Notes under the pieces: generated by a model | The model's input: the letters and a program-made list of their open reading frames with translations, nothing else | What the model was told of the DNA's origin: nothing | The model's database searches: none | Shown here: positions 169-18,465 of the stretch, in pieces | Numbering within the stretch: position 1 is the stretch's first letter | Layout: every line of letters begins with the position of its first letter | Program-made: the position numbers and the translations under genes | DNA from: Sterolibacteriaceae bacterium | Lineage (GTDB): Bacteria; Pseudomonadota; Gammaproteobacteria; Burkholderiales; Rhodocyclaceae | DNA length: 33,752 bases | Assembly: GCA_025360425.1 (NCBI GenBank) | Contig: JANYCD010000002.1 | Location: forward strand, 1-33,752 | Reading direction: 5' to 3'

Positions 169-208
169 TGCTCTTCTCCTTTATCACGAATTTAGTTCAC
201 ATTTACTC

Positions 209-222
209 AACAAACGCTGGTT
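209..222. promoter_or_regulatory. Putative TetR operator, site 1 (upstream of the DUF1302 gene)
   Basis: AACAAACGCTGGTT matches the island motif AACAA-N4-T-N-GTT. It is an imperfect dyad with AAC...GTT ends. It lies 41 bases upstream of the leftward start at 168. I could not assign a convincing -35/-10 pair here, so this is the least supported of the five sites together with site 5. Confidence 0.45.
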
Positions 223-315
223 TGACAGATGGCGAAACGGTGGCGATGGTAATTCAACTTCAGCGACTTGAAATAGCTAATTTCATTATTTGTATTATTT
301 ATACCACACTACCAC

Positions 316-1452
316 TCACAGCCCCATATCCTTGGCTATGATGCTGCGCAGAATTTCGTTGGTGCCGCCGCCGACCATGCCGTGCTTGGCCTCGCGGAAG
401 TAGCGTTCCATGTCGTATTCGGGCAGTTGCGCATAGCCGCCCAGGGCCTGCATGCCATTGAAGGCAATTCTGAACAGGGTTTCCGAGGTGATCAGCTTGG
501 CCATCGAGACTTCCTTGACCGCGCGTTCGCCGCGCGCCATCTTGCTCGCAGCGGAATAAACCAAGAGGCGGGCGGCAGCGAGCTCTGCCTCGTTTTGCGC
601 CATCCTGTGCTTGAGCACCTGGAATGACGACAGGGGTTTGCCGAATTGCTTGCGGTCCTTGGTATAGCGGATGGTGTCATCCAGTGCGGTACGCGCATTT
701 CCAACCTGCGAAGCGGCAATGCTGAGGCGTTCATATTCCAGATGCTCGCCGATGTAATGCCAACCTCTGCCCACTTCGCCAAGGATCGCGTTCTTTGGAA
801 TGCGCATGTTGTCCATGAAAAATTCCGTTGTGCCCAGACTCTTGCGGACGACGGTGTTCATCTTCTTGATGTCCAGGCCCGGCGTCGTGTTCGGTACCAG
901 GAAAAGACTGAATCCGTTATAACGGTCCTGGTCTGTCCGCGCCAGAATCGCGATGGTCGCCCCCGGCAATTGCGCCCCGGAGCACCACACCTTGTTGCCG
1001 TTCAACACCCATTCGTCACCTTCGAGGCGCGCCGTGGAACGCGCCGACGCGGCGTCCGAACCTGAGCCGGGTTCGCTGATCGATATTGAAAACTTGGCGT
1101 CGCCCTTCAGAAAGGGTTGCAGGTATTTTTGTTTTTGCTCAGGCGTTCCGTGGCGCGAAATATTCCCTGCGGTGAACATTGAGGTCATGATGCAGGCGGC
1201 GGTATCGAGGCTATGCTTGCCGATGGCCTCGCAAAAGATCGCGAACATGATGGGATCAGCGGCGACTCCACCATCCTCTTCCGGCACCATCAGCCCCAGC
1301 CAGCCCTGATCGGCCATTTTTCGATATACATCTTCAGGAAAATCGCGGTTGGCGTCATGTTCCCGGGTGTATTCGCGACTGACTTCCTTCTCCATGAATG
1401 AATGGAGGGTGTCGTGCCAGATACGCTGTTCTTCAGTGAAGCTGAAATCCAT
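316..1452 (-). CDS. Acyl-CoA dehydrogenase
   Basis: FAD-dependent acyl-CoA dehydrogenase of 378 residues, the usual family length. It should introduce an alpha-beta double bond into an acyl-CoA. I chose the ATG at 1452 (MDFSFTEEQ), which has AAAGGAAAG upstream. The reading frame stays open to 1620, but the added 56 residues do not look like this family. The FAD/substrate signature FSISISEPGSGSD is at 121-133. At the MCAD catalytic Glu position (normally YEGT) the protein has GGGT at 361-364. A Glu in LEYERL (residue 241) matches the alternative catalytic Glu of isovaleryl-CoA and long-chain acyl-CoA dehydrogenases. It is transcribed away from the acyl-CoA synthetase at 1718, with an operator-like site between them. 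It probably acts on the CoA ester made by that ligase; the substrate is unknown. Confidence 0.92.
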   Translation of the reverse strand: MDFSFTEEQRIWHDTLHSFMEKEVSREYTREHDANRDFPEDVYRKMADQGWLGLMVPEEDGGVAADPIMFAIFCEAIGKHSLDTAACIMTSMFTAGNISRHGTPEQKQKYLQPFLKGDAKFSISISEPGSGSDAASARSTARLEGDEWVLNGNKVWCSGAQLPGATIAILARTDQDRYNGFSLFLVPNTTPGLDIKKMNTVVRKSLGTTEFFMDNMRIPKNAILGEVGRGWHYIGEHLEYERLSIAASQVGNARTALDDTIRYTKDRKQFGKPLSSFQVLKHRMAQNEAELAAARLLVYSAASKMARGERAVKEVSMAKLITSETLFRIAFNGMQALGGYAQLPEYDMERYFREAKHGMVGGGTNEILRSIIAKDMGL

Positions 1453-1613
1453 GAACTTTCCTTTTTGAATCGTAGCGTTGACGCCGATTGCTGCAACCTG
1501 TCGTGCAGGTAAAAGTACGAGAGGCCGGATTGAAGCTGCGGTTGGTGTAATTGGCTTGTGTTCGTCGCAGGGTCCAAGCGCTGCTTGACGCTGCATGATT
1601 TCGCTACGGTGGT

Positions 1614-1643
1614 TTGACAAACAGCAATGGTGCGAAGTACATT
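1614..1643 (+). promoter_or_regulatory. Probable sigma70 promoter of the acyl-CoA synthetase gene
   Basis: TTGACA (1614-1619), an 18-base spacer and TACATT (1638-1643). Operator site 2 begins two bases after the -10 box. The same layout is repeated in front of the P450 and MaoC genes. Confidence 0.5.
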
Positions 1644-1645
1644 AA

Positions 1646-1659
1646 AACAAATGTTAGTT
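1646..1659. promoter_or_regulatory. Putative TetR operator, site 2 (divergent acd / acyl-CoA synthetase)
   Basis: AACAAATGTTAGTT is an imperfect dyad, 10 of 14 bases symmetric. It follows the rightward -10 box directly and overlaps the possible leftward -10 box, so one bound repressor could close both divergent promoters. Confidence 0.6.
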
Positions 1660-1679
1660 GGGTTGATTTATGTTGTCAA
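1651..1679 (-). promoter_or_regulatory. Possible sigma70 promoter of the acyl-CoA dehydrogenase gene
   Basis: On the minus strand, TTGACA (1674-1679), a 17-base spacer and TAACAT (1651-1656). The -10 hexamer lies inside operator site 2. The leader to the ATG at 1452 would be about 190 bases, which is long and lowers confidence. Confidence 0.35.
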
Positions 1680-1717
1680 GCCGACTCGAATCAACTCGAT
1701 AAAACCGAAACCTATTC

Positions 1718-3460
1718 ATGATTTTTACGCCGTCCCAACGCCGTGAGCTGCTCGAAGCGCGCTATCCGGTCTGGAAACCGATGACCATTTCGCAGGCGCT
1801 GGACGCAGCGACAGTTGAGTTCGGTACCCGACCGTTGGTCATTACGGATGAGCGGAACTACAGCTACCAGGACATCCAGGATTGGTCGCGACGCCTGGCT
1901 TCAGGCTTGATCGCCCGCGGCGTACGCGCGGGCGATCATGTCGCGATCATTCTCGCCAACTACCCGGAATATGTCGCAGCTAAATATGCCATCGCGCGGG
2001 TCGGCGCGGCGGCGGTGCCGATCAACTACCTGCTGAGACGCCAGGAGCTGCGCTACATACTTGAGCAATCGGATACTACCGTGCTCATCACCATGAACCG
2101 GCTGCGCGATCACCACTATCTGGACAACCTGGATGAAATTGCGCCCGGCTGGGCCACCGCTGGTGGCGGTTCGCATCTGCCCATGTTGCGTGACGTCTTT
2201 GTGTTTTCTACCGATGACGCGCGGCGCGCGGGCACCGCGGATCTCGACGATCTGGCGCGGCTGGCCACGGCGCAGAGCGACGCCGAGCTGGCGCGGCGCG
2301 AAGCAAGCGCCGACTCTGGCTCCCTCTGCGACGTAATTTATACCTCCGGCACCACGGGCCGCCCCAAAGGGGTCATGCTCAGCCACGACATGATTCTGCG
2401 TGCGGCCTATGCCTCGGTCTACACCCGCGCGTTTGAAGACGGCCGCCGCATTCTTTTTGCACTGCCGATGTATCACGTCTTCGGCTATGTGGAATGTTTG
2501 ATCGCGTGCGCCTTCAGCGGCGGCGCAATTATTCCGCATGTCGCTTTTGATGCCGAGCAGATGATCGCGGCGGCGGAACGCCATCACGCCAGTGAAATCG
2601 TTTGCGTGCCGGTGATGACGCTCAAGCTGCTGGAGGTGGTGCGCCAGCGTGGTTTTGATCATTCGAGCCTGATCGCCATGTTCAATTCTGGCGGGGCGTC
2701 GCCGGCGACGATCTGGCAGGAGATCCGCGATGTGCTCGGCGCGCGCGAGATTCTTACCGGTTACGGCATGACCGAAACGACCGCTTCGACGACGTGCACA
2801 TTTCCGGAAGGTCCGGACGACAAGCTGCTCACTACCAATGGACGACTCAAGTACGCGGGGGTCGCGGGCGATCCCGCGCTGGATGGGCTGCTTGCCTTGT
2901 ACAAGACCATCGACCCGGAAACCGGCGCCGACCTGCCGGTTGGGATGCCTGGCGAGCTGGTTGCGCGCGGCCCCATCGTCACCGCCGGTTACTATAAAAA
3001 GCCGGAGGAAACTGCCGCCGCATTCAACGCCGCAGGTTGGCTGCATACGGGTGATATTGGTATCGTCGATGCAGAGGGTTACCTGACACTCACCGGGCGC
3101 ATCAAGGAAACCTATCGTTGTGGCGGCGAAATGGTCATGCCGCGTGAAATCGAGGAACTCGTCAGCGAGCACCCATTGGTTGGTCAAGCCTTTGTCATCG
3201 GCATCCCCGATGCCAAGATGGGGGAAATTGGCTGTGTCTGCATCGTCCCTGCTGGTGAGCAGCGCCCGGCGCCACAGGAAATCGTCGATCTGTGCGCCCG
3301 CCGGCTGGCGCGTTTCAAGGTACCCGGTCATGTGATCTTCCTCTCCGCCCAGGAGATTCCTTACACGGCAACCGGCAGGGCGCAAAAATTTCTCCTTGCC
3401 GAGATTGCCCAGCAGCAACTGGTTGCCTCGGGCAATCCGCCCGCCTTGCGGCCGTCTTGA
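1718..3460 (+). CDS. Acyl-CoA synthetase (AMP-binding, FadD-like)
   Basis: ANL-superfamily ligase of 580 residues, expected to activate a carboxylic acid through an acyl-adenylate and load it on CoA. The P-loop YTSGTTGRPKG is at 208-218, YGMTE at 349-353, HTGDIG at 443-448, and the hinge region at 460-479 includes GGE and PREIE. In the C-terminal domain the A10 motif reads ATGRAQKF (551-558): the usual catalytic Lys of the GK pair is Arg554, with Lys557 three residues later. No strong ribosome site precedes the ATG at 1718. It lies between the divergent promoter region and the P450 operon. A likely substrate is the acid released by the ring-opening hydrolase at 4841, but that is inference. 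Confidence 0.92.
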   Translation: MIFTPSQRRELLEARYPVWKPMTISQALDAATVEFGTRPLVITDERNYSYQDIQDWSRRLASGLIARGVRAGDHVAIILANYPEYVAAKYAIARVGAAAVPINYLLRRQELRYILEQSDTTVLITMNRLRDHHYLDNLDEIAPGWATAGGGSHLPMLRDVFVFSTDDARRAGTADLDDLARLATAQSDAELARREASADSGSLCDVIYTSGTTGRPKGVMLSHDMILRAAYASVYTRAFEDGRRILFALPMYHVFGYVECLIACAFSGGAIIPHVAFDAEQMIAAAERHHASEIVCVPVMTLKLLEVVRQRGFDHSSLIAMFNSGGASPATIWQEIRDVLGAREILTGYGMTETTASTTCTFPEGPDDKLLTTNGRLKYAGVAGDPALDGLLALYKTIDPETGADLPVGMPGELVARGPIVTAGYYKKPEETAAAFNAAGWLHTGDIGIVDAEGYLTLTGRIKETYRCGGEMVMPREIEELVSEHPLVGQAFVIGIPDAKMGEIGCVCIVPAGEQRPAPQEIVDLCARRLARFKVPGHVIFLSAQEIPYTATGRAQKFLLAEIAQQQLVASGNPPALRPS

Positions 3461-3478
3461 ATCAGCCTCCATGCCGTG

Positions 3479-3508
3479 TTGACACGGTGTTCCGATAACG
3501 GGTAGAGT
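3479..3508 (+). promoter_or_regulatory. Probable sigma70 promoter of the P450 operon
   Basis: TTGACA (3479-3484), an 18-base spacer and TAGAGT (3503-3508). The predicted transcription start falls inside the palindromic operator at 3514-3529. Confidence 0.55.
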
Positions 3509-3513
3509 CGAAA

Positions 3514-3529
3514 AAACAATCGATTGTTT
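3514..3529. promoter_or_regulatory. Putative TetR operator, site 3 (P450 operon)
   Basis: AAACAATCGATTGTTT is a perfect 16-base palindrome, the most symmetric of the five island sites. It starts five bases after the -10 box and ends 68 bases before the P450 start, the expected position for steric repression. Confidence 0.65.
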
Positions 3530-3597
3530 GTCGCGTCCCACGGAATGCAATATCCTCGACAATCGCCACGAATTTTCAAACGCTTGAGGAAAAAATA

Positions 3598-4836: not shown

Positions 4837-4840
4837 GAAC

Positions 4841-5629
4841 ATGTCTTCAGTCGCCGCACGATTCGATCAATACCGCAACCGCTATCAGAATATAAAACTG
4901 GAGCGTGAGGACGGCATCCTCACCATGACCCTGCAAACCAACGGGGGTAACTTCGTCTGGAGCGCCCTTGCCCATGAGGAACTGGGTTATTGCTTCACCG
5001 ACATTGGTACGGATCGCGACAACAAGGTCGTCATCATGACCAGCACCGGCGACAACTGGTGTGCCGAGATTGACGCGGGCAGTTTCAAGTTGAGCAACGC
5101 GGGCGACTGGGATTTGACCATCTATGATGGTCGCCGCTTGCTGCTCAACTTGCTGGATATCGAGGTTCCGGTCATTAGCGCGGTAAATGGCCCGGCGCGG
5201 ATTCATCCGGAAATTCCGGTGTTGTCCGATATTGTCATCGCCTCTGAAACCGCCTTGTTTCAGGATGCGCCGCATTTCATGTCCGGCATCGTGCCGGGCG
5301 ATGGCGCCCATATTGTATGGCCGCATCTGCTGGGCGCCAATCGAGGGCGCTATTTCCTGCTCACGGGTCAGGAACTCGACGCGCGCACCGCACTTGAGTA
5401 CGGCGCAGTGAGTGAGGTCGTGCCGCCGGCCCGGCTCATGGCGCGGGCAAAAGAACTTGCCACAATGATTGCCGCCAAGCCGCAGTTGACGAGGCGTTAC
5501 AGTCGTATTGCGCTCACTCAGCGCATCAAGCGTCTGATGCATGAAGGCCTCGGTTACGGATTGGCAATTGAAGCGCTTGCGGCGATCGACCAGTTGCCTA
5601 CCGAGGGTCGGATGAAGTCGTCAAAATAA
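4841..5629 (+). CDS. Crotonase-fold beta-diketone hydrolase, 6-oxocamphor hydrolase (CamK)-like
   Basis: Crotonase-superfamily protein of 262 residues. It closely resembles, from memory, 6-oxocamphor hydrolase of Rhodococcus, which opens a bicyclic beta-diketone by a hydrolytic retro-Claisen reaction without CoA. The four catalytic-site residues reported for that enzyme occur here at the same numbers: His122 (in IHPEIP), His145 (in DAPHF), Asp154 (in VPGDGAH) and Glu244 (in [10 protein letters not shown]). The stretch [16 protein letters not shown] (175-190) is also characteristic. I chose the ATG at 4841, four bases after the P450 stop, because the numbering then matches; an upstream in-frame start at 4820 would lie inside the P450 gene. 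Its place after a P450 and before a dehydrogenase fits a hydroxylate, oxidise, cleave sequence. The true substrate may be another cyclic diketone. Confidence 0.85.
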
Positions 5630-5677
5630 ACAATCCCCTTCCCGAAAATACAATTTCAAGCAACGAGGAGAAATGCA

Positions 5678-5878: not shown

Positions 5879-5884
5879 GCCGTA

Positions 5885-6844
5885 ATGTCGGAACTTCGCT
5901 TTGATGGCCGGGTAGCCCTGATCACCGGCGCTGGTGGCTCGATCGGCCGCGCTCACGCAATGCTTCTGGCTGCGCGTGGTGCAAAGATCGTGGTCAATGA
6001 CTACAACATCACCGTTGCCGGCGAGCCAGGCAAACCCGGGGCGAACCCAGGCGAAAAAGTTGCCGCAGAACTTTGCGCCATGGGGGCTGATGCGATCTTC
6101 AATGGCGACAGCGTTGCAGATCCCGAAGGTGCCGGGCGCATGGTTCAGGCGGCGCTGGACAAATTCGGACGCTTGGATATTGTCGTCAATAACGCCGCAA
6201 TCGCCGTTTGCAATTTCGTTCATGAAGAACCCGGACCTTTGTACGAGCGCAACATGAAGATTCTGCTCGAAGGATCGATGTTCGTGGTGCGCGCTGCCTG
6301 GGAACAGATGAAGAAGCAGCAGTTCGGCCGCATCCTGAATACCAGCTCCGGATCCATTTTCGGCTTCAATCAGCCCGACGGTAACTGGTGGGGTTCCTAC
6401 GTGATTGCCAAATCAGCCGTCGTCGCTTACACGCGCCAGCTCGGCGGCTATGGCGAGCAGTTTGGCATCAAGGCCAACGCAATTCTGCCGCTGGCCTACA
6501 GCCGCCAGAACTGGGATCTGCTGAAAGGCACTCCGGAAGGCGACTTCATGGAGAAATACACACCGCCAGAAAAGGTCGCCACGGCGTCCGGCTATCTGCT
6601 GCACGACGAGTGCCCCATCAGTGGCGCTGCGTTCAGTGTCAGTGGTGGCCGCATCGCCCGGATCGTCTATGCAGAGCCGCTGGGCTACCACCATCCGCAA
6701 CTCACCCCTGAGGATGTCCGTGATAATTGGGCACAGGTCATGGGTCAGGTTGGCAGCGATTTCCGACTGAGCGAGTTTTTTGAGGTTCCCAGTCTGTGGC
6801 AGGAATCTGCTTTGATGCGCGCTGCCGGCGTGGGTAAGGACTGA
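5885..6844 (+). CDS. Short-chain dehydrogenase/reductase (MFE-2-like)
   Basis: NAD(P)-dependent SDR of 319 residues, longer than the classical 250. The cofactor motif TGAGGSIG is near residues 15-22, followed by NNAA, the catalytic serine region NTSSGS and the active-site YVIAK. The long insertion after VVNDYN and the C-terminal extension resemble the dehydrogenase part of MFE-2-type enzymes. It starts six bases after the ferredoxin and closes the operon. The simplest role is oxidation of the P450-made alcohol to a ketone, giving the beta-diketone that the CamK-like enzyme opens. Action on a hydroxyacyl-CoA is the alternative. Confidence 0.9.
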   Translation: MSELRFDGRVALITGAGGSIGRAHAMLLAARGAKIVVNDYNITVAGEPGKPGANPGEKVAAELCAMGADAIFNGDSVADPEGAGRMVQAALDKFGRLDIVVNNAAIAVCNFVHEEPGPLYERNMKILLEGSMFVVRAAWEQMKKQQFGRILNTSSGSIFGFNQPDGNWWGSYVIAKSAVVAYTRQLGGYGEQFGIKANAILPLAYSRQNWDLLKGTPEGDFMEKYTPPEKVATASGYLLHDECPISGAAFSVSGGRIARIVYAEPLGYHHPQLTPEDVRDNWAQVMGQVGSDFRLSEFFEVPSLWQESALMRAAGVGKD

Positions 6845-6892
6845 CCAGCCTTTCGAGCGGACGGTTGGATGCATCCGCGTTTTGGATGCAAC

Positions 6893-6922
6893 AAGTGGAT
6901 CGTCAACTGCGACGATCCACTT
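6893..6922. terminator. Bidirectional terminator between convergent operons
   Basis: A perfect 12-base stem (6893-6904 with 6911-6922, arm AAGTGGATCGTC) encloses a six-base loop and is followed by CTACTTTT. It lies between the ends of two convergent SDR genes and can serve both directions. Confidence 0.75.
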
Positions 6923-6950
6923 CTACTTTTGCGGCTGAATGCGGCTACCG

Positions 6951-7691
6951 CTATAAGGAGGTATAGCCTCCATCGATCAGAATGGTCGAACCGGTGATGA
7001 ACGAGGACTCGTCGCTGGCGAGGAACAACGCCAGATTCGCCACTTCGGACGCCTCGGCCATGCGGCCCATGGGCGTTGCCTTGTAAACCACATCGAGCGC
7101 CGCCTGATCCATGCCAGCGGTCATGCCGGTTTTGATGGGACCAGGCAGGATGGCGTTCACGCGAATTTTCTTGCCCGCATATTCCGTTGCTGCCGCCTTG
7201 GTCATCATGACCACCGCCGCCTTGGCACCACAGTAGGCAATTTGGGCATGGAACGCGACGACGGACGCCATTGATGCCGTGTTAACGATGGATCCACCGC
7301 CCTGCTTGAGCATGAGGGGAATGGCGTAGCGGATGCCGAGAAATACGGAGCGGGCATTAACGGCCATTACCTGGTCATAGCCCTCCTCGGAATATTCCCC
7401 GGCAAGGTTCATTTCGCCGATGATCGACGCGTTGTTGTAGAGAATATCGAGTCGGCCGAATTCGGAAACCGCCTTGGCCAACATGGCCTGCACGTCCTTG
7501 CCTTTGGAAACGTCGGCGTGAAAGGGCAGACAGTTGGCGCCAATACGCTTGGCCACATCTTCCTGCTTACCCGAAATATCGACGATGACGACTTTCGCAC
7601 CTTCGCGGCAAAACAGTTCTGCCGATGCGGCACCAATGCCCGAGCCCGCACCGGTGATAACGGCAACTTTTCCTGCCAGTCTTCCTGCCAT
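6951..7691 (-). CDS. Short-chain dehydrogenase/reductase (classical)
   Basis: Classical SDR of 246 residues: TGAGSGIG at 13-20, NNAS at 86-89, Ser140, Tyr153 and Lys157 (YCGAK), and the C-terminal FITGSTILIDGG. I chose the ATG at 7691 (MAGRLAGKVAVITGAG) with AAGGACGAG upstream; the frame is open to 7832, but that extension would overlap the CoA-transferase and has no family resemblance. It is the last gene of the ten-gene leftward operon, 37 bases after the CoA-transferase. It probably oxidises a hydroxyl on an intermediate, either free or CoA-linked; the substrate is unknown. Confidence 0.92.
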   Translation of the reverse strand: MAGRLAGKVAVITGAGSGIGAASAELFCREGAKVVIVDISGKQEDVAKRIGANCLPFHADVSKGKDVQAMLAKAVSEFGRLDILYNNASIIGEMNLAGEYSEEGYDQVMAVNARSVFLGIRYAIPLMLKQGGGSIVNTASMASVVAFHAQIAYCGAKAAVVMMTKAAATEYAGKKIRVNAILPGPIKTGMTAGMDQAALDVVYKATPMGRMAEASEVANLALFLASDESSFITGSTILIDGGYTSL

Positions 7692-7728
7692 TTCTCTCGT
7701 CCTTTTTAGTGTTAAAACCGAATCCGAT

Positions 7729-8904: not shown

Positions 8905-9215
8905 GATGGACTCCGCGGCAGCACTTGCCCCTTGCGGTCGGGGGTCCACAACTTGTCGACGGTCTGCCGAACCTCAACCTCGCGGACCCCGGGTATCTGC
9001 ATGACCGCATCCTGAATGTACTGACGCATCCCGCGGAAATGAACACAACCCGGATCGGTCAGGCACAGCGTGACGGACACGCGTCCGTCCGTGATTTCCA
9101 GGGCATCCACCAAACCCATTTCACAAATGTCCATGGGGTTACGCATGAGCAGGCTACAAGGCTCCTGCACGGTACGTAACTGCTGCAAGACCATGGCTTG
9201 CGTGATCTGGGTCAT
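8898..9215 (-). CDS. DUF59 / MIP18-family (PaaD-like) Fe-S assembly protein
   Basis: A 105-residue protein with the DUF59 pattern: MGLVDALEITDGRVSV, then LCLTDPGC with the conserved Cys, and IPGVREVEVRQTVDKLW. Family members act in Fe-S cluster maturation or, as PaaD, support a catabolic oxygenase. Its ATG overlaps the amidohydrolase stop (ATGA, 9212-9215) and its own stop overlaps the CoA-transferase start, so it is translationally coupled on both sides. The only Fe-S protein recognised in the island is the ferredoxin at 5678, so a role in maturing that cluster is possible but unproven. Confidence 0.8.
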   Translation of the reverse strand: MTQITQAMVLQQLRTVQEPCSLLMRNPMDICEMGLVDALEITDGRVSVTLCLTDPGCVHFRGMRQYIQDAVMQIPGVREVEVRQTVDKLWTPDRKGQVLPRSPSC

Positions 9216-10297
9216 GAGCGCGGCTTGGCCACCTTTCCCCCACGGAGCAGGTGCCAGGGATTAACTTCGCCGCGTGCGCGTGCCAATGCGAACTCGTCAT
9301 TGCAGGTGCCCTGGATTACCGCTTCTGGCGTGATGCCGTGCAGACGCATGGCGTTTCTACCAAGGATATTGAGCCGGTCCTCTGCCGTGATTTGGCGCAG
9401 ACCGAACTCCTGGACATGCGCTTCCGGGAATTCATAATTCAGAAACGCACTGATCAACGGAGACGGATGCCCAAGGTTGTTGCCGCTGGCGAACAAGAGT
9501 CGGTCGGAGCCGCACTCAGTAATCAACCTGCCAAGAATCTTGGCGAACACCCGCGGCTTTACCAGGATGTATTGAAACGTCGTTTCCAGCGTCAGGTAAA
9601 GGTTGCGGTGGTGCTTGAGCAACGCAATGGTTTCATCGAGGAACGCGATCGCGCCGTGCACCATTTCAAACTGAATATCCGGAAACCTTGCCAGTGGCGA
9701 GTCAAAATCATCGATCGCGAATGCCCATTTCGGCGCTGGTGCAAGCCACAAGGACTTGTGCACGGCGACGTGCCTGATGCCCAGGTCCATTGCCGCCTCC
9801 AGAAGCGGCGTGGCGAAGTCAGGGCCATCGAGCTTCCACCCCTGGCCTTTGCCGTCGTAATAGAACGCCGGGTAGAGCTTGATGCCGTCCACCTTCAGTT
9901 CCTTGACCTGGCGCTCGACGTCAGCAATTGCGGTTTCGATGATGGGGGTATCGACCGTGCCATAAAGCTTGAATCGGTTCGGGTGCAGGTCGCGAAACGC
10001 CGCTGCCTTGTCCGGATCGGTGATAAAGCTCAGGCCGAAGCCGAGGTTGGGGAGCGCATGAATAATGCCGAAATCCACGGGGGACTCGACAAACTCTGCA
10101 TGCGCGATGACGTCCCAGGATATGTCGGTGAAGAACTCCTCATCATTCAGCACATAGTCGCGATGTGCTTCGTCGACCGACAGCTTGTGGGAACCATGAA
10201 CTGCAGCAATGGCGTCGGGGGCATCGGGGTTCTGGTTCTCCGGGGACATGTTCCATGGGTGAACCACGGCATCGACGATGACGATGTCGTTGATCAC
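9212..10297 (-). CDS. Amidohydrolase-2 fold protein with degenerate metal site
   Basis: A 361-residue TIM-barrel protein resembling the amidohydrolase-2 (ACMSD-related) family. The usual HxH of strand 1 reads VVHPWN (His13 present, second His replaced by Trp15). Later His176, His180 and His214 are present. The canonical FGSD near strand 8, which supplies a metal-binding Asp, reads FASGNN (269-274). The metal site therefore looks incomplete. The GTG start at 10297 overlaps the preceding stop (GTGA) and has AAGGAAAG upstream. Similar proteins occur in aromatic and steroid catabolic clusters as decarboxylases or hydrolases. The reaction here is unknown. Confidence 0.8.
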   Translation of the reverse strand: MINDIVIVDAVVHPWNMSPENQNPDAPDAIAAVHGSHKLSVDEAHRDYVLNDEEFFTDISWDVIAHAEFVESPVDFGIIHALPNLGFGLSFITDPDKAAAFRDLHPNRFKLYGTVDTPIIETAIADVERQVKELKVDGIKLYPAFYYDGKGQGWKLDGPDFATPLLEAAMDLGIRHVAVHKSLWLAPAPKWAFAIDDFDSPLARFPDIQFEMVHGAIAFLDETIALLKHHRNLYLTLETTFQYILVKPRVFAKILGRLITECGSDRLLFASGNNLGHPSPLISAFLNYEFPEAHVQEFGLRQITAEDRLNILGRNAMRLHGITPEAVIQGTCNDEFALARARGEVNPWHLLRGGKVAKPRS

Positions 10298-11121
10298 GAG
10301 TCGCTTTCCTTGTCGAGACGATTGTATTCAGGCTCGCGCTTCTCTAGCGCGGCGTCGACGCCCTCAGGCAAGTCAGCGCCGTGATACAGCGCAGCTGCAC
10401 CCCAGAAGCTGGTGTTCATGGAAGAGATCAAATCCATGTGCCAGCTTTGTCGAAGCTGATGTTTGGTGGCCTCCAGCGCCAGACGCGAATATTTCGCGAT
10501 CCTGGCGGCCAGTTCAACGGTGGCGGGAATCAACTGCTCGTGCTCGACCACACGGTTGACCAGGCCCATGCTCAAGGCCCGTTCGGCGTCAATGAGATCG
10601 CCGGTAAATGCGAGCTCGGCGGCCAGACCGGACCCAATCAGGCGCGGCAGGAAGTAACTGCCGCCATTGCCGGGGTTCAATCCGAGCTTGATGTAGGTTT
10701 CACCCATCCTGGCTTTTTTGGAAGCCACGCGCATGTCACAGGCAAGCGCAAAGTCGAAGCCGCCGGCGGTCGCACCACCGTTGATGGCCGCAATGATGGG
10801 CAGACGGCACGTCACCAGGCGCTGCGTGACAGGAAACAGAACACGGGCGTTGTAGGGCTCATGTTCGATTTGCAGACGCTGTTCGAGAAAATGTTTGAAC
10901 CCGTTAAGATCAGCGCCAGCGCAAAATTGCTTGCCGGCACCAGTGATGATCAGCACGCGAACGCGCATATCCGATTCCAGTACGGCAAACGTGGAGAGGA
11001 GGTCTCGCGCCATTTCGGGTACGACTCCGTTACCCGACTCGGGCCGATTCAGCGTCAACATGACGACGCCATCCGCCACCGTCTCGTAATAGACGGTTTC
11101 GAGCTCCACCTTGTTGCTCAT
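10294..11121 (-). CDS. Enoyl-CoA hydratase/isomerase family protein, atypical active site
   Basis: Crotonase-fold protein of 275 residues. The oxyanion-hole segments CAGADL (67-72) and NGGATAGG (114-121) are intact, so acyl-CoA binding is likely. The two catalytic glutamates of classical hydratase (E144 and E164 in rat) align with Asp123 (GGFDFA) and Tyr143 (GETYIKLG), so plain hydration is doubtful. It has AAGGAAA before the ATG and lies between the thiolase and the amidohydrolase in the leftward operon. It could be an isomerase, a hydrolase or a C-C bond enzyme. Confidence 0.88.
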   Translation of the reverse strand: MSNKVELETVYYETVADGVVMLTLNRPESGNGVVPEMARDLLSTFAVLESDMRVRVLIITGAGKQFCAGADLNGFKHFLEQRLQIEHEPYNARVLFPVTQRLVTCRLPIIAAINGGATAGGFDFALACDMRVASKKARMGETYIKLGLNPGNGGSYFLPRLIGSGLAAELAFTGDLIDAERALSMGLVNRVVEHEQLIPATVELAARIAKYSRLALEATKHQLRQSWHMDLISSMNTSFWGAAALYHGADLPEGVDAALEKREPEYNRLDKESDS

Positions 11122-11134
11122 GAGTTTCCTTAGC

Positions 11135-12313
11135 CTAGTTGGCCTTTTGCAGAATCGTGGTCACGGCCAGCGCATACATCCCGCCCAGCCAACCGCCACC
11201 GTTCACGGCCATACCGCTGCGCGCACCCTCCACTTGTCTGCTGCCGGCGCGTCCCCGCAACTGCGTGCATATCTCAACCACTTGGGCACAACCTGTCGCG
11301 CCCAACGGGTGGCCGCGGCTGAGTAAGCCGCCACTGACATTGACCGGATGCGCACCGCCCAGGGCAGTCGCGCCGCGTCGCAGCAGATGGTGTGCCTGGC
11401 CTTCTTCGCAAAGACCAATCTCGGAATATTGAAACAACTCCGCCGGCGCCGCCGCATCGTGCAGTTCGAAAAGGTCAACATCGCCGGGGCCAATGCCTGC
11501 ATCGGCGTAGGCGGCAGCCGCTGCTCCGACGACTGGGCTCTTTGGATGGTTTTTTCCCTGGCCAGCGATTTGCGATGTCACCAGATGCACCAAGTCTCCC
11601 TTGAGGCGGCGTGCGTATTCCTCCGAACACACCACGAGTGCCGCAGCACCGTCGGTCGTTGGAGAACACATGGGCAGCGTCAGGGGTGAAACAATCATGC
11701 GCGCCGCCAGCACTTCCTCGACGGTCTGTGGCTTGCGCAAATGCGCCAGCGGATTCAGCGCCGCATGATTGCGGTTCTTGACGGCAACCAGGGCAAAGTC
11801 ACTCGGATGCGCTTGATATCGGTCAAGAAAGGCTTGCGCCTCGCCCGCGTAGTAGTCCATGAGGATCGAGTTGGTTGCGAGTTTCCCTGGCTCCGATTCG
11901 CCGATTTCCTCGATGTCGGTGGATCCGCGCAATGCGTTGAAGGGCCGCGACTTGTCGGGGTGGTTCAGTTGTTCAACACCCACCACCAACACAACTTCCG
12001 CACGCCCGCCGCTGATCGCCTCGAATGCAAGGTTCAACGCTGAACCGCCCGAGGCACAGGCATTCTCGACATTGATGAGTGGCACACTACTCAGTGGGTG
12101 ATAGCGCAGCGCAATCTGGCCGCGAATCATCTCCTGCTGTGAGACGATACCTGCCGCCGCATTGCCGAAAAAAATCTTGTCGACGTCTTCCAGGGGCACG
12201 CCGGCATCGGCCATGGCTTCATCAATCGCTGCCACCGCGAGGCTGCGGACACCGCGGCCCAACTGCTTTCCGAAAGGCGTCATGCCGACGCCGGCAATCA
12301 TTACCTTGTTCAC
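11135..12313 (-). CDS. SCP2/Ltp-type thiolase
   Basis: Thiolase-superfamily protein of 392 residues. The nucleophile Cys86 is in ENACASGGSA, His285 in FELHDAAAP, and His335 in GGLLSRGHPLGATG. The C-terminal second Cys of classical thiolases is replaced (AVNGGG), as is usual in the SCP2 group. The GTG start at 12313 has AAAGGA upstream and lies two bases after the ligase stop. It should cleave a beta-ketoacyl-CoA with CoA. It is the only thiolase in the island that keeps the catalytic cysteine. Confidence 0.92.
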   Translation of the reverse strand: MNKVMIAGVGMTPFGKQLGRGVRSLAVAAIDEAMADAGVPLEDVDKIFFGNAAAGIVSQQEMIRGQIALRYHPLSSVPLINVENACASGGSALNLAFEAISGGRAEVVLVVGVEQLNHPDKSRPFNALRGSTDIEEIGESEPGKLATNSILMDYYAGEAQAFLDRYQAHPSDFALVAVKNRNHAALNPLAHLRKPQTVEEVLAARMIVSPLTLPMCSPTTDGAAALVVCSEEYARRLKGDLVHLVTSQIAGQGKNHPKSPVVGAAAAAYADAGIGPGDVDLFELHDAAAPAELFQYSEIGLCEEGQAHHLLRRGATALGGAHPVNVSGGLLSRGHPLGATGCAQVVEICTQLRGRAGSRQVEGARSGMAVNGGGWLGGMYALAVTTILQKAN

Positions 12314-12315
12314 GA

Positions 12316-13905
12316 TTATCCTTTCTTGGGCAATTGCGGTCCGCCACCACCGATACGTCCTTCATATCCCTTCCAATAGGTCTCGCGAATTTCGCGGCGC
12401 ATCACCTTGCCATATCCGCTCACCGGTAACTTGTCCATGAACTCGACGCTCTTGGGCTTTTTGTATCCGGCCATGTTTTTTCCGCAGTAAGTAATAATGT
12501 CTTCGGCCGTCGCAGCAGCGCCGGGTTGCAGTTCGACGACGGCATGCACTGCTTCGCCCCAGTATTCATGGGGAATGCCGAACACGACCACATTTGCAAC
12601 GGCGGGGTGATGAACAATGACTTCTTCCACTTCGCGTGGATAGACATTGTTGCCACCGCTGATGATCATGTCCTTGGCGCGGTCGAGCAAGAACAGATAG
12701 CCGTTCTCGTCGAAGGAACCGATGTCACCCGTATGCAGCCAGCCATTGCGCATGGTTTCCGCCGTCGCCTCGGGATTATTCCAGTAGCCCATCATGACGA
12801 TGTCACCGCGCACCACGACTTCGCCGGCCTGGCCGGGTGGCAATTCGTTGTCGTGTTCATCCACGACCCGAGCCTCGATATCGGTGCGGATCGTGCCGGT
12901 GGAACCTATCCGCGGATCATCGGCTTCGGCCATTCGCGCCGTTTCGGTCGCGCTCATCCCGGTAATGGTGATCGGCGCTTCGCCCTGACCATATAGCTGT
13001 GTGAACACCGGTCCGAATGCCTTGATCGCGTTGCGCAAATGCTCGACATAGATCGGCGCACCGCCAAAACATATCGCACGTAAACTGGACAGGTCATATT
13101 CGCCGGGCGTGAACTCTTCCAGCATCTTGATGATCTGCGTCGGCGCCAGGAAAGCGATGTGGGAAACCTTCATGCGCTGCACGAGGGCAAACAATTCCTT
13201 GGGCTCGAAACTCTTGTTTTCGAAAATTATATTGACAGCGCCGCGCGCCACTGCGGGCAATGCAATGATCCCGCTACCGTGCGACATCGGCGCGGCATGA
13301 ACAACAGTCTCGCCGGGCAGTATATTGTGCAGGTCGGCGAGGTAATTCATGATCACGATCTTCACCGTGCGGTGATTCCAGGTCGCCCCCTTGGGCTTGC
13401 CTGTGGTGCCGGAGGTGTAGAACAACCAGCAAGGATCCGTTTGCGCGACTTCAATTGGCGACTTCAGCGCGGCGGCGGAATCCAGCAACGCGCTGTAAGT
13501 GACAGCGCCCTCGGCCTGCTCGATGCAAACCCGCTTTTGCAACCCGGAAAACTCGGCGATATGCTCGACGATGCCATCCTGATATTCCGGCCCATGGATC
13601 AATACCTTGGCGCCGGAGTTGGACACGATGTAGGCCATCTCCTTCGCATGCAGTCGGGCATTGACCGGGACCACCACAAGGCCTGCGGCGAAGCAACCGT
13701 AAATCGTTTCGAGGATGCGCGGACTGTTGGACAGGCAGAACGCTACGCGATCGCCTGCCTTGAGCCCCATCGCCAGCAGATTGCCGCCGATCGCCAACGC
13801 GCGCCCATAAAACTCGCGATAGGTGATGTGCTCGGCGCCATGCACGATCGCTAAACCATCCGGGCGCTGGCGCGCAACCTTTTGCAGGAAAACACAGGTG
13901 TTCAT
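12316..13905 (-). CDS. Acyl-CoA synthetase (AMP-dependent)
   Basis: ANL-superfamily ligase of 529 residues. The P-loop YTSGTTGKPKG is at 163-173, YGQGE at 305-309, HTGDIG at 391-396, GGNNVYPREVE at 417-427, and the A10 lysine is Lys500 in SGYGKVMRRE. Unlike the ligase at 1718, it keeps the canonical A10 Lys. It starts 12 bases after the DUF35 gene and ends two bases before the thiolase, in the leftward operon. It probably activates a later or alternative carboxylic acid intermediate; the substrate is not predictable from sequence. Confidence 0.94.
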   Translation of the reverse strand: MNTCVFLQKVARQRPDGLAIVHGAEHITYREFYGRALAIGGNLLAMGLKAGDRVAFCLSNSPRILETIYGCFAAGLVVVPVNARLHAKEMAYIVSNSGAKVLIHGPEYQDGIVEHIAEFSGLQKRVCIEQAEGAVTYSALLDSAAALKSPIEVAQTDPCWLFYTSGTTGKPKGATWNHRTVKIVIMNYLADLHNILPGETVVHAAPMSHGSGIIALPAVARGAVNIIFENKSFEPKELFALVQRMKVSHIAFLAPTQIIKMLEEFTPGEYDLSSLRAICFGGAPIYVEHLRNAIKAFGPVFTQLYGQGEAPITITGMSATETARMAEADDPRIGSTGTIRTDIEARVVDEHDNELPPGQAGEVVVRGDIVMMGYWNNPEATAETMRNGWLHTGDIGSFDENGYLFLLDRAKDMIISGGNNVYPREVEEVIVHHPAVANVVVFGIPHEYWGEAVHAVVELQPGAAATAEDIITYCGKNMAGYKKPKSVEFMDKLPVSGYGKVMRREIRETYWKGYEGRIGGGGPQLPKKG

Positions 13906-13917
13906 CTGGCGCTCGTT

Positions 13918-14319
13918 TTATGTCTTGGCGTGTTTGAACCAGGCACAGGGGCGTTTTTCAGCGTGTTCCGCCGACATGGGCGCAAACTCCACCCGCTCGT
14001 CGCACTTGTAGCTCTTCCACTCGCCATCGGCATCGGGGACCAGGCGGCCGAGCAGCTGCACGCCCTCATCCAACTTGACTACACCCAAAGCATAGGGCAA
14101 CTCATTCTCGAAGCCTTCCGGAGGACCCAGACGCAGAATGGTGAAGCTGTGCAGCACGCCCTTGCCGGATGCCTTTTGCCACCCCAGCGATTCCGACTGG
14201 CAGTGCGGGCAGGCATAGCGCGGATACATGTTGAACTTGCCACAGGAATTGCATTTTTGTACCAGCAATTCACCGCGAATGAGGCCTGCGCGAAAATCCG
14301 CAACGATAGGTGGCGTCAT
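13918..14319 (-). CDS. DUF35 zinc-ribbon/OB-fold protein, partner of thiolase-fold protein
   Basis: A 133-residue protein with a four-Cys zinc ribbon (CNSC...CPHC) followed by an OB-fold with the typical GKGVLHSFTI segment. DUF35 proteins form complexes with thiolase-like enzymes, for example the DUF35 part of ChsH2 with the Ltp2 aldolase in steroid side-chain degradation. The ATG at 14319 overlaps the stop of the thiolase-fold gene (ATGA) and has AAGGGGG upstream, so the pair is translationally coupled. The frame is open upstream to 14598, but that part only shadows the thiolase gene. Confidence 0.92.
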   Translation of the reverse strand: MTPPIVADFRAGLIRGELLVQKCNSCGKFNMYPRYACPHCQSESLGWQKASGKGVLHSFTILRLGPPEGFENELPYALGVVKLDEGVQLLGRLVPDADGEWKSYKCDERVEFAPMSAEHAEKRPCAWFKHAKT

Positions 14320-15548
14320 TTGGCACCCCCTTTCCCCGTCCGCTCCAGCAACAAAACCTGCGCATCCATATAACTTCCTCCAGAGCCGCCAATGATGCAG
14401 CGTTGTGCGTTTTTGATTTGGCGTTCCGACTCGGCGCGGCCCAGCAACTGGCGCACACCTTCCACCAGCAAGGCGGTGCCGCCACCGACGCCGGTGTGGC
14501 CGGCTGAAAGCAAACCGCCGTTGGTGTTGCAGGGAAACTTGCCGCCGGGCGAGGCATTGCCGGCGGCGAACCAGCGCGCGCCCTCGCCGGGTTCGCAAAT
14601 GCCGAAGCCTTCGACGGCGATCGTGGTAACCGCGGCATAGGAATCATAGATCTCGCCAAACTGGGCATCTTTCGGACCCCAGCCCGATTGTGCGTAGGCA
14701 CGCTTGGCCGCAGTGGCCCAACCCAGTGCCGCCAGGTCATTTTCCTGACCGATGCTGTAATGGCTGACACAGCCGCCCGATCCGGCGACACGCACCGTAG
14801 TGTCGAGGCCGCGCTTCTTGGCATTCTCGGCGCTGGTCATGACAAAAGCGGCAGCGCCGTCGGCGAGCATCGGACACTCCATCACATGCAGCGGGTCCGA
14901 GGCCATGCGCGAAGCGAGCACCTGCTCCACCGTCAATTTCTTGCCGCGGTACATGGCGTTGGGGTTGAGCTGCGCCCAGTCGCGCAGTGCCACACAGACC
15001 GAGGCCATCTCGGCTGGCGTCGATCCGGTGCTGGCCATGTAGCGCTGCGTGATCAAGCCGCCAATCGCGTTGAACTGTACGCCGGTGGGCAGTTCCCATT
15101 CGCCCGGAATCCCGTTCTTGCTGAGGCTGTTGATCATTTCCATCACGTCGGCCGAACCCCAGCGTTCGCATTGCAGAACCAGCACCGTGCGCGCATGGCC
15201 GGAAGCGATCAAGCCCGAGGCCGCGCGCACCGCGTTGTCACTGGTTGAACCGCCGGAGTGGATCATGAAGCTGGCTTTTGCATGTCCGGCAAGACCCAGC
15301 TCTTCGACCATGCGCGAAAACACCAGGTCGGCCTGGTCGGTAAATCCGTGCAAACAGGGGATCAGCAATATGGTGTCGACATCGCGTGGCACCATGCCGG
15401 CGTCCTTGAGCGCTAGGATCGCGACCTTGGTCAGATCGCCGATGAAAGTGCGCTGCGGATATTTGCCGGAAGGAATTTCGCCGATACCAACGAAGACCGG
15501 GTCGTTGGGTGATTTCGCATCAACATTGAGTGGCCAGGTATCACTCAT
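14316..15548 (-). CDS. Thiolase-fold protein without nucleophilic Cys (Ltp2-like aldolase candidate)
   Basis: Thiolase-superfamily protein of 410 residues. Aligning SGGS at 98-101 with CASGGSA of the other thiolase puts Ile96 where the nucleophilic Cys should be. His351 (GGLLSAGH) is kept, and HD of the SCP2 thiolases is replaced by YD (Tyr301 in GEIYDSY). Loss of Cys with Tyr in this place and a coupled DUF35 protein fits Ltp2-type retro-aldolases, which split a tertiary beta-hydroxyacyl-CoA. I prefer the ATG at 15548 (MSDTW), which is spaced seven bases from AGGA; the ATG at 15554 is only one base away. It overlaps the end of the MaoC gene. Confidence 0.9.
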   Translation of the reverse strand: MSDTWPLNVDAKSPNDPVFVGIGEIPSGKYPQRTFIGDLTKVAILALKDAGMVPRDVDTILLIPCLHGFTDQADLVFSRMVEELGLAGHAKASFMIHSGGSTSDNAVRAASGLIASGHARTVLVLQCERWGSADVMEMINSLSKNGIPGEWELPTGVQFNAIGGLITQRYMASTGSTPAEMASVCVALRDWAQLNPNAMYRGKKLTVEQVLASRMASDPLHVMECPMLADGAAAFVMTSAENAKKRGLDTTVRVAGSGGCVSHYSIGQENDLAALGWATAAKRAYAQSGWGPKDAQFGEIYDSYAAVTTIAVEGFGICEPGEGARWFAAGNASPGGKFPCNTNGGLLSAGHTGVGGGTALLVEGVRQLLGRAESERQIKNAQRCIIGGSGGSYMDAQVLLLERTGKGGAK

Positions 15549-16035
15549 TGGCATTTCCTTTTACTGCCTGGCGCCGCGCCAGCATGATTTGCAGGAATGT
15601 CATGACTTCTTCCTCCTTTTGATTGCGTATTGAATAATTGACATGCAAGGTGCCGTACTTTGGATTGCTGCCAGCACTGAGTTCGACAACCTCGGCATGG
15701 ACTTTGATTGTGTCACCGGGCAACACCGGTTTAAGCGCACGCAGACTTTTGATTTCCAGCAATGCCACGATCGCGTTACCGTAAAAACCGCTCATTCCGA
15801 CCAGACCGACGGCAATGGCAAAAGTCAGCGGGCCGTGTGTGATCCGCGTCCCAAATCGGGTGGACTTTCCAAATTCTTCATCAATATGGAGCGGATAATG
15901 ATCGCCGGTCAAACCGGCGAAAGTCGTGAGATCGCCAATATCAACCGTGCGTCCTCGCGTCACCATGACATCGCCAAGGATGAAGTCGTCAAAGGTCTTA
16001 TCTTGCGGATCGCTCAAAGTGCGCCCAGCACTCAT
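15541..16035 (-). CDS. MaoC-family hydratase
   Basis: Hot-dog-fold (R)-specific enoyl-CoA hydratase-like protein of 164 residues. The hydratase signature FAGLTGDHYPLHID is at 39-52, with catalytic Asp45 and His50, followed by GTRITHGPLT. I chose the ATG at 16035 (MSAGRT), preceded by GGGGGA; the upstream in-frame start at 16056 lies inside the operator. It heads the ten-gene leftward operon. Its stop overlaps the thiolase-fold gene. MaoC, Cys-less thiolase and DUF35 in a row recall the ChsH1, Ltp2, ChsH2 hydratase-aldolase set, so it likely hydrates an enoyl-CoA for the retro-aldol step. Confidence 0.92.
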   Translation of the reverse strand: MSAGRTLSDPQDKTFDDFILGDVMVTRGRTVDIGDLTTFAGLTGDHYPLHIDEEFGKSTRFGTRITHGPLTFAIAVGLVGMSGFYGNAIVALLEIKSLRALKPVLPGDTIKVHAEVVELSAGSNPKYGTLHVNYSIRNQKEEEVMTFLQIMLARRQAVKGNANE

Positions 16036-16046
16036 GCTCTTCCCCC

Positions 16047-16062
16047 AAACAATCATTTGTTT
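16047..16062. promoter_or_regulatory. Putative TetR operator, site 4 (ten-gene leftward operon)
   Basis: AAACAATCATTTGTTT has 12 of 16 bases symmetric. It lies between the -10 box and the MaoC start, 12 bases from the ATG, so it probably overlies the transcription start. Confidence 0.65.
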
Positions 16063-16071
16063 AAGAGGGCA

Positions 16072-16101
16072 AGAATACCTGAGACCGGGCTACGGCGTCA
16101 A
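16072..16101 (-). promoter_or_regulatory. Probable sigma70 promoter of the ten-gene leftward operon
   Basis: On the minus strand, TTGACG (16096-16101), an 18-base spacer and TATTCT (16072-16077), followed ten bases later by operator site 4. This is the same layout as at the P450 operon. Confidence 0.5.
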
Positions 16102-16163
16102 CCGGCCACGGTGGTTACGGAGGGGTGGTGACAGGCTCGCGACGGTGGGAACTTCGTCGATTA

Positions 16164-16817
16164 TTAGCCTGCGGTATTTTTTTTGCGCTTTATGCTTGCT
16201 GTCGTGGCATCTAGCGGTGCCTCATAACCGCCTGCACACAATCCATGCAGCAGATAGTCAGCAAGTTTTTCGCCAATTTCCTCTGCCCCGGCGGGTCCGT
16301 GTGGCGAATACCATTCCGGCGTCCAGTTGAGCGCCCCGAGTATGGTTAACACCGCAATCCGGCTATCAATCTTGGCGCCGAAATCACCGCTTTTAATGCC
16401 GTCATCCATTATTTTTTCAAATATCTTCTGGTAACGGCGGCGTTTGTCCTTGGCGCGCGGAAGATTCTGATCGCTGAGAAAGCGCCATTGGTGAAATACC
16501 ACGAGCGCACGCTCGGGGTTCTCTGCCGCCACTGCTACATGCGCCTTGATTGCCTTGCGCATGCGCGCTTCGGCGGACGCTGTCGACGCGGCAAGCGGCT
16601 TTTCAATCGCGAGAAACCTTTCGATTCCAGACTCGACCAGCTCGACGAGAAGCGTTTCCTTGCCATCGATATGCGCATAAAGGCTCCCCGGTAACATCGC
16701 CACAGCGTTGGCAATGTCGCGCATCGTAGTTCCCGGATATCCATGCTTGCTGAAAAGCAGCATCGCGGCTTCGAGAATGGCTTCCCTCGGGTGAAGGACG
16801 TCTTGTGGGGTGCTCAT
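16164..16817 (-). CDS. TetR-family transcriptional regulator
   Basis: Regulator of 217 residues. The N-terminal TetR helix-turn-helix spans about residues 10-57, with GTTMRDIANAVAMLPGSLYAHI as the core (quoted split: GTTMRDIANAVA, MLPGSLYAHI). The C-terminal part, with WTPEWYSPHGP, resembles KstR2-type and other acyl-CoA-sensing regulators of catabolic clusters. It lies directly upstream of the ten-gene operon on the same strand, with a 128-base gap to the MaoC start. The motif AACAA-N4-T-N-GTT found at five places in the island is its best candidate operator and has the same half-site style (A-n-CAA...TTG-n-T) as KstR2. The likely inducer is a CoA ester intermediate. Confidence 0.92.
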   Translation of the reverse strand: MSTPQDVLHPREAILEAAMLLFSKHGYPGTTMRDIANAVAMLPGSLYAHIDGKETLLVELVESGIERFLAIEKPLAASTASAEARMRKAIKAHVAVAAENPERALVVFHQWRFLSDQNLPRAKDKRRRYQKIFEKIMDDGIKSGDFGAKIDSRIAVLTILGALNWTPEWYSPHGPAGAEEIGEKLADYLLHGLCAGGYEAPLDATTASIKRKKNTAG

Positions 16818-16979
16818 GTACGAATGATTGGCATAAGAGGAATGAGCGATCTCATGGTATCGAGACTATCGGGGACAATCCAACGCACAGTTCGTATCAG
16901 TCCTTAATTCCTTGCGCCATAGCGCCATAGCGATACAAACTTGGTCATCGCAGATTATAGCTGACTCCTCAAAGGATAA

Positions 16980-16993
16980 AACAAACGTTTGTA
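16980..16993. promoter_or_regulatory. Putative TetR operator, site 5 (between tetR and the AAA remnant)
   Basis: AACAAACGTTTGTA contains the perfect 12-base palindrome ACAAACGTTTGT (16981-16992). It lies 163 bases upstream of the tetR start and about 30 bases from the truncated AAA gene. It may serve tetR autoregulation or may be left from a lost neighbour. I saw no clear promoter hexamers next to it. Confidence 0.5.
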
Positions 16994-17020
16994 ATCGTTG
17001 GACTGGGCTACGGAGGAAAA

Positions 17021-18417: not shown

Positions 18418-18465
18418 AACCAAGCCTGTTTTAATCCTCAGCTCGACCGAGCCAACTCTACCGCT

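Follow-up and report, generated by a model that had tools for sequence, protein, structure and literature searches.

We identified a candidate regulatory switch in a 33,752-nt window, contig JANYCD010000002.1 of a Sterolibacteriaceae bacterium (assembly GCA_025360425.1, 2.47 Mb, 83.8% complete; hereafter the host). Five 14-mers distributed over a catabolic gene island are very probably operators of the TetR-family repressor encoded there at 16164..16817 on the minus strand. A dimer of this regulator would bind AACAA(A/T)(C/T)(G/A)(T/A)TTGTT at the core promoters of the island and near the tetR promoter, and the bound repressor would keep RNA polymerase from starting. The promoters covered would be those of a DUF1302 gene, of a divergent pair encoding an acyl-CoA dehydrogenase (acd) and an acyl-CoA synthetase (fadD1), of a cytochrome P450-enoyl-CoA hydratase (ECH)-short-chain dehydrogenase (SDR) unit, and of a unit running from a MaoC-type hydratase gene to a second SDR gene (SDR2). 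Distant bacterial relatives also carry this switch next to the same regulator gene, so that it is very likely a real on/off control of the island pathway. We computed the sites, the promoter-like sequences, their conservation and co-occurrence, and further sites elsewhere; from these we infer binding, repression, control in trans, ligand and substrate.

The first-pass annotation had proposed that five 14-mers share the pattern AACAANNNNTNGT, and we found all of them where it placed them. Operator 1 (209..222, AACAAACGCTGGTT) lies upstream of the DUF1302 gene (minus strand), operator 2 (1646..1659, AACAAATGTTAGTT) between the divergent acd (minus) and fadD1 (plus), operator 3 (3515..3528, AACAATCGATTGTT) ahead of the P450-ECH-SDR unit, operator 4 (16048..16061, AACAATCATTTGTT) ahead of the MaoC-to-SDR2 unit (minus strand), and operator 5 (16980..16993, AACAAACGTTTGTA) about 160 bp upstream of the tetR start. 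Their non-coding location holds, given the more likely starts of acd at 1452 and of the MaoC gene at 16035. The loose pattern had been expected about once in the window, and this estimate was accurate (0.91, both strands), but two additional coding matches had been overlooked. There are 9 strand-wise matches in 7 distinct places (209, 984 on the minus strand, 1646, 3515, 16048, 16980 and 26203), a count equalled in 0 of 100 shuffles of the window. The two extra places, inside acd (984) and near the end of an open reading frame (ORF) at 24622-26277 (26203), are outside the 14 best window positions of a matrix derived from other species.

That matrix rests on relatives of the regulator. The protein was searched in genome contigs, and 7 of 16 loci were kept at 47-59% identity, from Sphingomonas echinoides (ATCC 14820, 59%), three Pseudonocardia, Aeromicrobium and two Nocardioides; L043 (28%) and L044-L051 (Exiguobacterium, with only 61-75 residues matched) were dropped. 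A plasmid search contributed a Rhodococcus sp. 008 megaplasmid (46.5%), and two Deinococcus matches (32-35%) were omitted. Each of the seven kept loci carries several orthologues of the window enzymes. When all 5-mer inverted repeats with spacers of 0-10 were listed in these eight loci (160,066 bp), chosen by protein similarity, AACAA-N4-TTGTT came out on top, with 14 observed and 0.035 expected. The protein-similarity set replaced a de novo motif count on 17 loci, which was set aside because several of its stretches had been chosen by the motif itself. The matrix from the eight outside loci, with the window excluded, has the consensus given above and places the five sites at ranks 1-5 of the whole window, in the order operator 3 (score 26.6), operator 4 (26.4), operator 5 (24.5), operator 2 (18.3) and operator 1 (16.0). 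The matrix was seeded with the palindrome form, which had itself emerged from the listing without any use of the window. A matrix from Actinobacteria only gives the identical top five. Ranks 6-7 are shifted overlaps of the site at 3515, and the best coding position scores 10.4.

The overlapping matches at operator 3 lie 4 bp to either side, at 3511 and 3519, and are weaker (scores 14.0 and 13.7; span 3511-3532). A pair on the Rhodococcus plasmid (L091, 24888/24892) resembles them, and such shifted sites perhaps accommodate two dimers.

The position of the operator relative to the enzymes recurs as well. In S. echinoides, AACAAACATTTGTT lies between the divergent acd/fadD1 pair, as in the window, and full-length acd relatives of 67-78% identity occur in 6 of the 9 outside clusters. 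Where the P450 is found at 55-64% identity, an exact site stands just upstream of it or of the preceding SDR gene (6/6 outside clusters); three of these stretches (both Pseudonocardia and N. gansuensis) were retrieved by means of the motif, which leaves three as an unbiased count. The Rhodococcus stretch holds 8 sites with at most one mismatch against 0.30 expected, all between listed genes. A matrix built without this stretch puts its 11 top-scoring positions there exclusively between genes, about 82% of the stretch being listed as coding in an incomplete gene table. The proposal of one TetR with a shared operator is thereby strengthened, as relatives of the regulator accompany the same enzymes and the same operator in both Pseudomonadota and Actinomycetota.

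Genome-wide counts in carriers of the regulator point in the same direction. Exact palindromes in six carrier genomes number 2, 2, 11, 9, 5 and 4 (33 in sum), against 1, 0, 0, 0, 0 and 0 for a reversed-pattern control, and 32 of them are found either no more than 30 kb from the regulator or on contigs that also encode cluster enzymes or a paralogous regulator. In two further carriers, 6 of 9 sites (control 4) and 6 of 6 (control 0) are on the regulator's contig. We sampled 200 genomes from the order that includes Pseudonocardia sp. KRD291. The two carriers among them (E up to 1e-40) have 11 and 6 exact sites; of the 198 non-carriers, 66 contain any, with a maximum of 5 and similar control counts. 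In this one order the motif thus piles up in carriers and not in the sampled non-carriers.

This distribution also speaks against the idea that the sites serve another DNA-binding protein, for instance a global regulator or another TetR protein of the same pathway, with the neighbouring tetR a mere passenger. Moreover, one member of the regulator family was found in the host assembly at E 1e-20, and the recognition-helix stretch GSLYAHI is identical in all eight aligned carriers and resembles that of KstR2, whose operator has the same dyad frame. Such a passenger role would fit the additional TetR paralogues of the Actinobacterial clusters and, because regulator, enzymes and motif travel together, the linkage of motif to regulator is not fully separable from that of motif to enzymes. 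We nevertheless consider it improbable, and favour the adjacent TetR protein as the one that would recognise the sites.

The sites also share a position relative to promoters. The earlier claim that the motif directly follows a promoter at three sites is right in our promoter scan for 1646, 3515 and 16048. On the plus strand, TTGACA-18-TACATT ends at 1643 with operator 2 beginning 2 nt after the -10 box, and TTGACA-18-TAGAGT ends at 3508 with operator 3 beginning 6 nt after it; on the minus strand, TTGACG-18-TATTCT ends at 16072 and operator 4 begins 10 nt after its -10 box. Operator 2 additionally holds the -10 box (TAACAT) of a divergent TTGACA-17 promoter for acd. Across ten promoters examined in four genomes, those of the window among them, the operator starts 2-10 nt past a -10-like box, the gaps being 2, 5 and 7 nt at other host loci, 6, 6 and 5 nt on the Rhodococcus plasmid and 3 nt on the fadD1 side in S. 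echinoides. A repressor placed just after the -10 box would be expected to block initiation.

Several observations weigh against this reading or narrow it. Sites 209, 1646 and 16980 each have one mismatch to the perfect palindrome, and 209 and 1646 have the lowest matrix scores of the five. For 1-18500 the promoter scan gave 14 promoters where 8.0 would be expected by chance, only a moderate excess. Several of the ten examined promoters are weak, with 7-8 of 12 matches, and beside site 209 none of good quality was recognised. At site 16980 the operator is upstream of a minus-strand TATAAT box (identified by eye) and not downstream of it, and in the highest-scoring promoter of acd in S. echinoides the operator falls within the spacer. 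In several relatives the nearest site is downstream of tetR, ahead of the next gene, which makes autoregulation less certain. Actinobacterial clusters often have two or three related TetR genes, which leaves their regulator-site pairing ambiguous, and with the host assembly at 83.8% completeness a second family member could be missing from it. Within the presumed operons, the gaps ahead of SDR1 (255 bp) and of the CaiB-type gene (262 bp) contain no operator site, and the promoter scan gave one promoter-like match ahead of SDR1; separate, uncontrolled promoters are therefore possible in both gaps. The suggestion that the whole island answers to one regulator thus stands for the main promoters, and its extension to every gene would follow from gene direction.

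Background counts form part of the same caution. Over the whole 694-kb Rhodococcus plasmid the exact palindrome occurs 3 times, all in the cluster, and its reversed control 2 times. In the host genome the bare palindrome with one mismatch occurs in 78 places against 60 for the reversed control, and AACAANYRNTTGTT with one mismatch in 18 against 11; with counts so near the control, the consensus alone does not define the regulon. Nine of the 12 other one-mismatch host sites lie inside script-called ORFs, 6 of them scoring at least 16, so score alone does not separate operators from the host background. The annotation had named scattered equal-scoring sites in coding DNA as a possible objection: the window is free of them, but the host genome has some. 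A bare consensus scan was accordingly rejected as a finder of the host regulon. The exact palindromes at C9:30198 and C80:803 were also rejected as operators, being inside called ORFs with matrix scores below 11. The slight excess over control in the host would suit a compositional explanation, in which AT-rich intergenic DNA resembles AACAA...TTGTT by chance. We regard this as extremely improbable, given that a cross-species matrix ranks the five sites first to fifth, that the palindrome is so far above expectation in GC-rich relatives, that sites cluster in carriers, and that the -10 box geometry recurs.

The protein itself has the features expected of a repressor of this class. It combines TetR_N and TetR_C_24, with the helix-turn-helix matched by PF00440 (E 2.8e-12, 46.7 bits against a cut-off of 24) and the all-helical TetR-type ligand domain by PF17932 (E 2e-34). 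Its structure model (pLDDT 87) aligns to solved TetR proteins with Z about 22; the nearest folds are 3him, 2ibd, KstR2 and PfmR, with AibR and DarR next (Z 21-23).

The layout of the motif had been likened to KstR2 operators. KstR2 (Rv3557c) of Mycobacterium recognises AnCAAGnnCTTGnT (Kendall et al. 2010, PMC3068626). Common to both systems are a 14-bp dyad with a CAA-N4-TTG core, sites between divergent catabolic operons, the TetR fold (4w97, Z 22.5, rmsd 1.9, 189 aligned, 25% identity) and a similar recognition region (GSLYaHi in the regulator, GSLYhHf in KstR2). In contrast, the window regulon has A at position 2 and the centre (A/T)(C/T)(G/A)(T/A), where the published KstR2 motif has G-nn-C, and it includes a P450, a CoA transferase and an amidohydrolase, with a Baeyer-Villiger monooxygenase in a second island. 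AnCAAGnnCTTGnT has no exact match in the window; the sites at 209, 3515 and 16048 differ from it by 2 mismatches and those at 1646 and 16980 by more. At position 6 the matrix from the outside loci favours A or T. Two ligand-domain signatures of KstR2, KstR2-3 (ED-DE-RM-N-RK-QE-Q-R-K) and KstR2-5 (YRFIRDTTW), as described in PMC13176608, are absent from the regulator alignment, the aligned stretches being kdkrrryqk and vltilgalnw. The regulator reaches 25.8 bits with the KstR model NCBIfam NF033703 (cut-off 280). A FadD3-family model falls below its cut-off on fadD1 (328 against 657 bits); ipdAB were not searched for.

Could this nonetheless be a steroid regulon governed by a divergent KstR2? 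The KstR2 regulon serves the degradation of steroid rings C and D (fadD3, ipdAB and others). The resemblance of the helix-turn-helix and of the dyad would fit such a regulon, as would the family matches to a ChsH2-type OB protein, lipid-transfer thiolases and SnoaL-type proteins, all of which also occur in steroid pathways, and a steroid monooxygenase is also among the solved relatives of the Baeyer-Villiger monooxygenase. However, G6 and C9 of the KstR2 motif occur together in 0 of the 5 sites, none of which is closer than 2 mismatches, and the absence of both ligand-domain signatures points the same way. Among solved structures, those closest to the P450 are CYP101 chains, a good number of which are camphor 5-monooxygenase, and the Baeyer-Villiger, hydrolase and SMP-30-like genes suit ring opening of an alicyclic ketone. 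A steroid regulon is thus unlikely in our view. The dyad frame and core shared with the KstR2 motif are real, but the protein is not KstR2; judged by its sequence, it is a predicted new TetR-type catabolic repressor that would work in a KstR2-like manner.

Other solved repressors give a hint of the ligand. PfmR (3vpr), AibR (5k7z, an isovaleryl-CoA complex) and FadR-type repressors are among the closest folds (Z 22.3, 21.2 and about 19-20), at 19-28% identity. Since AibR and one FadR entry are acyl-CoA complexes, a CoA-ester ligand is favoured; DarR, solved with cyclic di-AMP, and proteins whose ligand is not known have scores just as high, so that the fold does not decide the ligand class. 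The inducer would be a CoA ester, possibly that of a ring-cleavage product. EdcR of Caenibius tardaugens offers a functional parallel: this TetR repressor likewise controls an alicyclic catabolic cluster, in its case for estrogen, and its putative operators are palindromes that overlap the -10 box (PMC8700777). Its operator TnnCnnTACnAnTnGTAnnGnnA is, however, unrelated to AACAA-N4-TTGTT and finds no match in the window even when 2 mismatches are allowed. Literature searches for AACAANNNNTTGTT, for TetR and footprinting with host names, and for a description of the regulon found none, in coverage that leaves out most subscription journals.

The regulon probably extends to other contigs of the host. 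AACAANYRNTTGTT occurs exactly in three host places, two in the window and one at C13:31283, 5 nt after TTGACA-16-TATAGT and facing a hydrolase-like ORF, which we take to be of the alpha/beta-hydrolase type, a Baeyer-Villiger monooxygenase gene and a SnoaL-type gene. A site at C13:22106 precedes genes for an SDR, a zinc alcohol dehydrogenase, a Rieske oxygenase, a GFO/IDH oxidoreductase and a P450, the last 63.6% identical to the window P450, and C22:21667 precedes an SMP-30/Vgb-lyase-type gene. These three promoter sites on two other contigs suggest that the regulator probably acts in trans, on both C13 units and on the C22 gene. The one-regulator idea is supported, but its regulon had been drawn too small, as it appears to reach at least two other contigs. 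Of 9 outside clusters, 8 encode a counterpart of the C13 SnoaL-type protein at 57-69% identity, and the second island therefore very likely belongs to the same pathway. The C13 Rieske gene has no relative in the outside clusters; nor has the SMP-30-like gene, which makes it the least certain target. The second island (L093, contig C13, 1966-12511) contains P450 and SDR paralogues together with the Rieske, Baeyer-Villiger and SnoaL genes, and no regulator of its own was recognised in it.

Taken together, the enzymes would act in sequence: the P450 would hydroxylate the substrate, an SDR oxidise it to a ketone, the Baeyer-Villiger monooxygenase open the ring and the hydrolase or the SMP-30-like protein hydrolyse the product, with CoA activation and beta-oxidation to follow. 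The nearest solved relative of the Baeyer-Villiger monooxygenase is 6jdk. This set fits oxidation and opening of an alicyclic ketone followed by beta-oxidation, which narrows the substrate to an alicyclic, terpenoid-like compound; cineole, camphor, ionone and steroid were weighed as candidates, and none was chosen.

The regulator is rare: in three orders it occurs in 2 of 246, 2 of 298 and 1 of 293 sampled genomes, and the genome that supplied the query is counted each time. This rarity suggests spread by horizontal transfer. In the host's order, TetR matches were found in 17 of 150 sampled genomes, the host included, and none of the other 149 exceeded about 33% identity; these matches (28-33%) were judged not orthologous and kept out of the footprint. 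On balance, we think it probable that AACAA-WYRW-TTGTT and this TetR clade have spread as a package with the alicyclic pathway between Actinomycetota and Pseudomonadota, keeping the operator and largely its place after the -10 box across GC contents, and that in the host, with two further loci in trans, one regulator would serve a multi-island pathway from ring oxygenation to beta-oxidation. An operator grammar would thus have been maintained across phyla together with a transferred pathway. The operator may serve as a sequence tag to locate genes of an alicyclic degradation pathway about which little is known, even those distant from the cluster, and the regulator-operator pair could become a biosensor part once the ligand is known.

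Some features of the outside clusters stand apart from these arguments. The Rhodococcus cluster (L091) has three TetR genes, at 5982-6590, 17345-17959 and 19974-20570. In a Pseudonocardia cluster (L074), RibBA, for riboflavin synthesis, and an NtaA/DmoA-type FMN monooxygenase stand among operator sites (8577-9875 and 13847-15616), as if flavin supply were co-regulated. An S. echinoides operator (L068, 4832-4845) precedes a gene for a TonB-dependent receptor, which suggests that outer-membrane uptake is part of the regulon, as DUF1302 may be in the window.

In the window, gene direction could allow five transcription units plus tetR: DUF1302, acd, fadD1, P450-ECH1-SDR1 and MaoC to SDR2. Operator 2 is common to acd and fadD1, and DUF1302, the P450 unit, the MaoC unit and tetR have one operator each. 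The DUF1302 gene (1..168, minus; PF06980, E 1.9e-7) is represented by its N-terminal 56 aa, cut by the contig start, and is followed by acd (316..1452, minus) and fadD1 (1718..3460, plus). The P450 gene (3598..4836, plus), whose nearest solved relatives belong to the CYP101 family, precedes an enoyl-CoA hydratase/isomerase gene (ECH1, 4841..5629, plus; the tool's ORF starts at 4820) and a short-chain dehydrogenase gene (SDR1, 5885..6844, plus), which begins 255 bp past ECH1 and may have its own promoter. The MaoC unit runs on the minus strand from the MaoC-type hydratase (15541..16035) through a thiolase of the lipid-transfer type (thiol2, 14316..15554), a ChsH2-type Zn-ribbon/OB-fold protein (DUF35, 13918..14343, start approximate), a second acyl-CoA synthetase (fadD2, 12316..13905), a thiolase of the SCP2 type (thiol1, 11135..12313), an enoyl-CoA hydratase (ECH2, 10294..11121), an amidohydrolase (Amidohydro_2, 9212..10297) and, 262 bp past the latter, a CaiB-type CoA transferase (7729..8949). 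Its last gene is SDR2 (6951..7832), a short-chain dehydrogenase whose true start lies further in than that of the ORF. Between the converging SDR1 and SDR2 units, a hairpin with a 12-bp stem (6893..6922) is likely a shared terminator.

To the right of tetR lies the remnant of a two-domain AAA ATPase (16973-18417), which has lost its N-terminal part and shows a frame change near the second Walker A motif; the frame change could be an assembly error. The remnant abuts operator 5, which places the edge of the island at about this point, and beyond it lie genes that we take, from their translations, to be gyrB-, dnaN- and dnaA-like.

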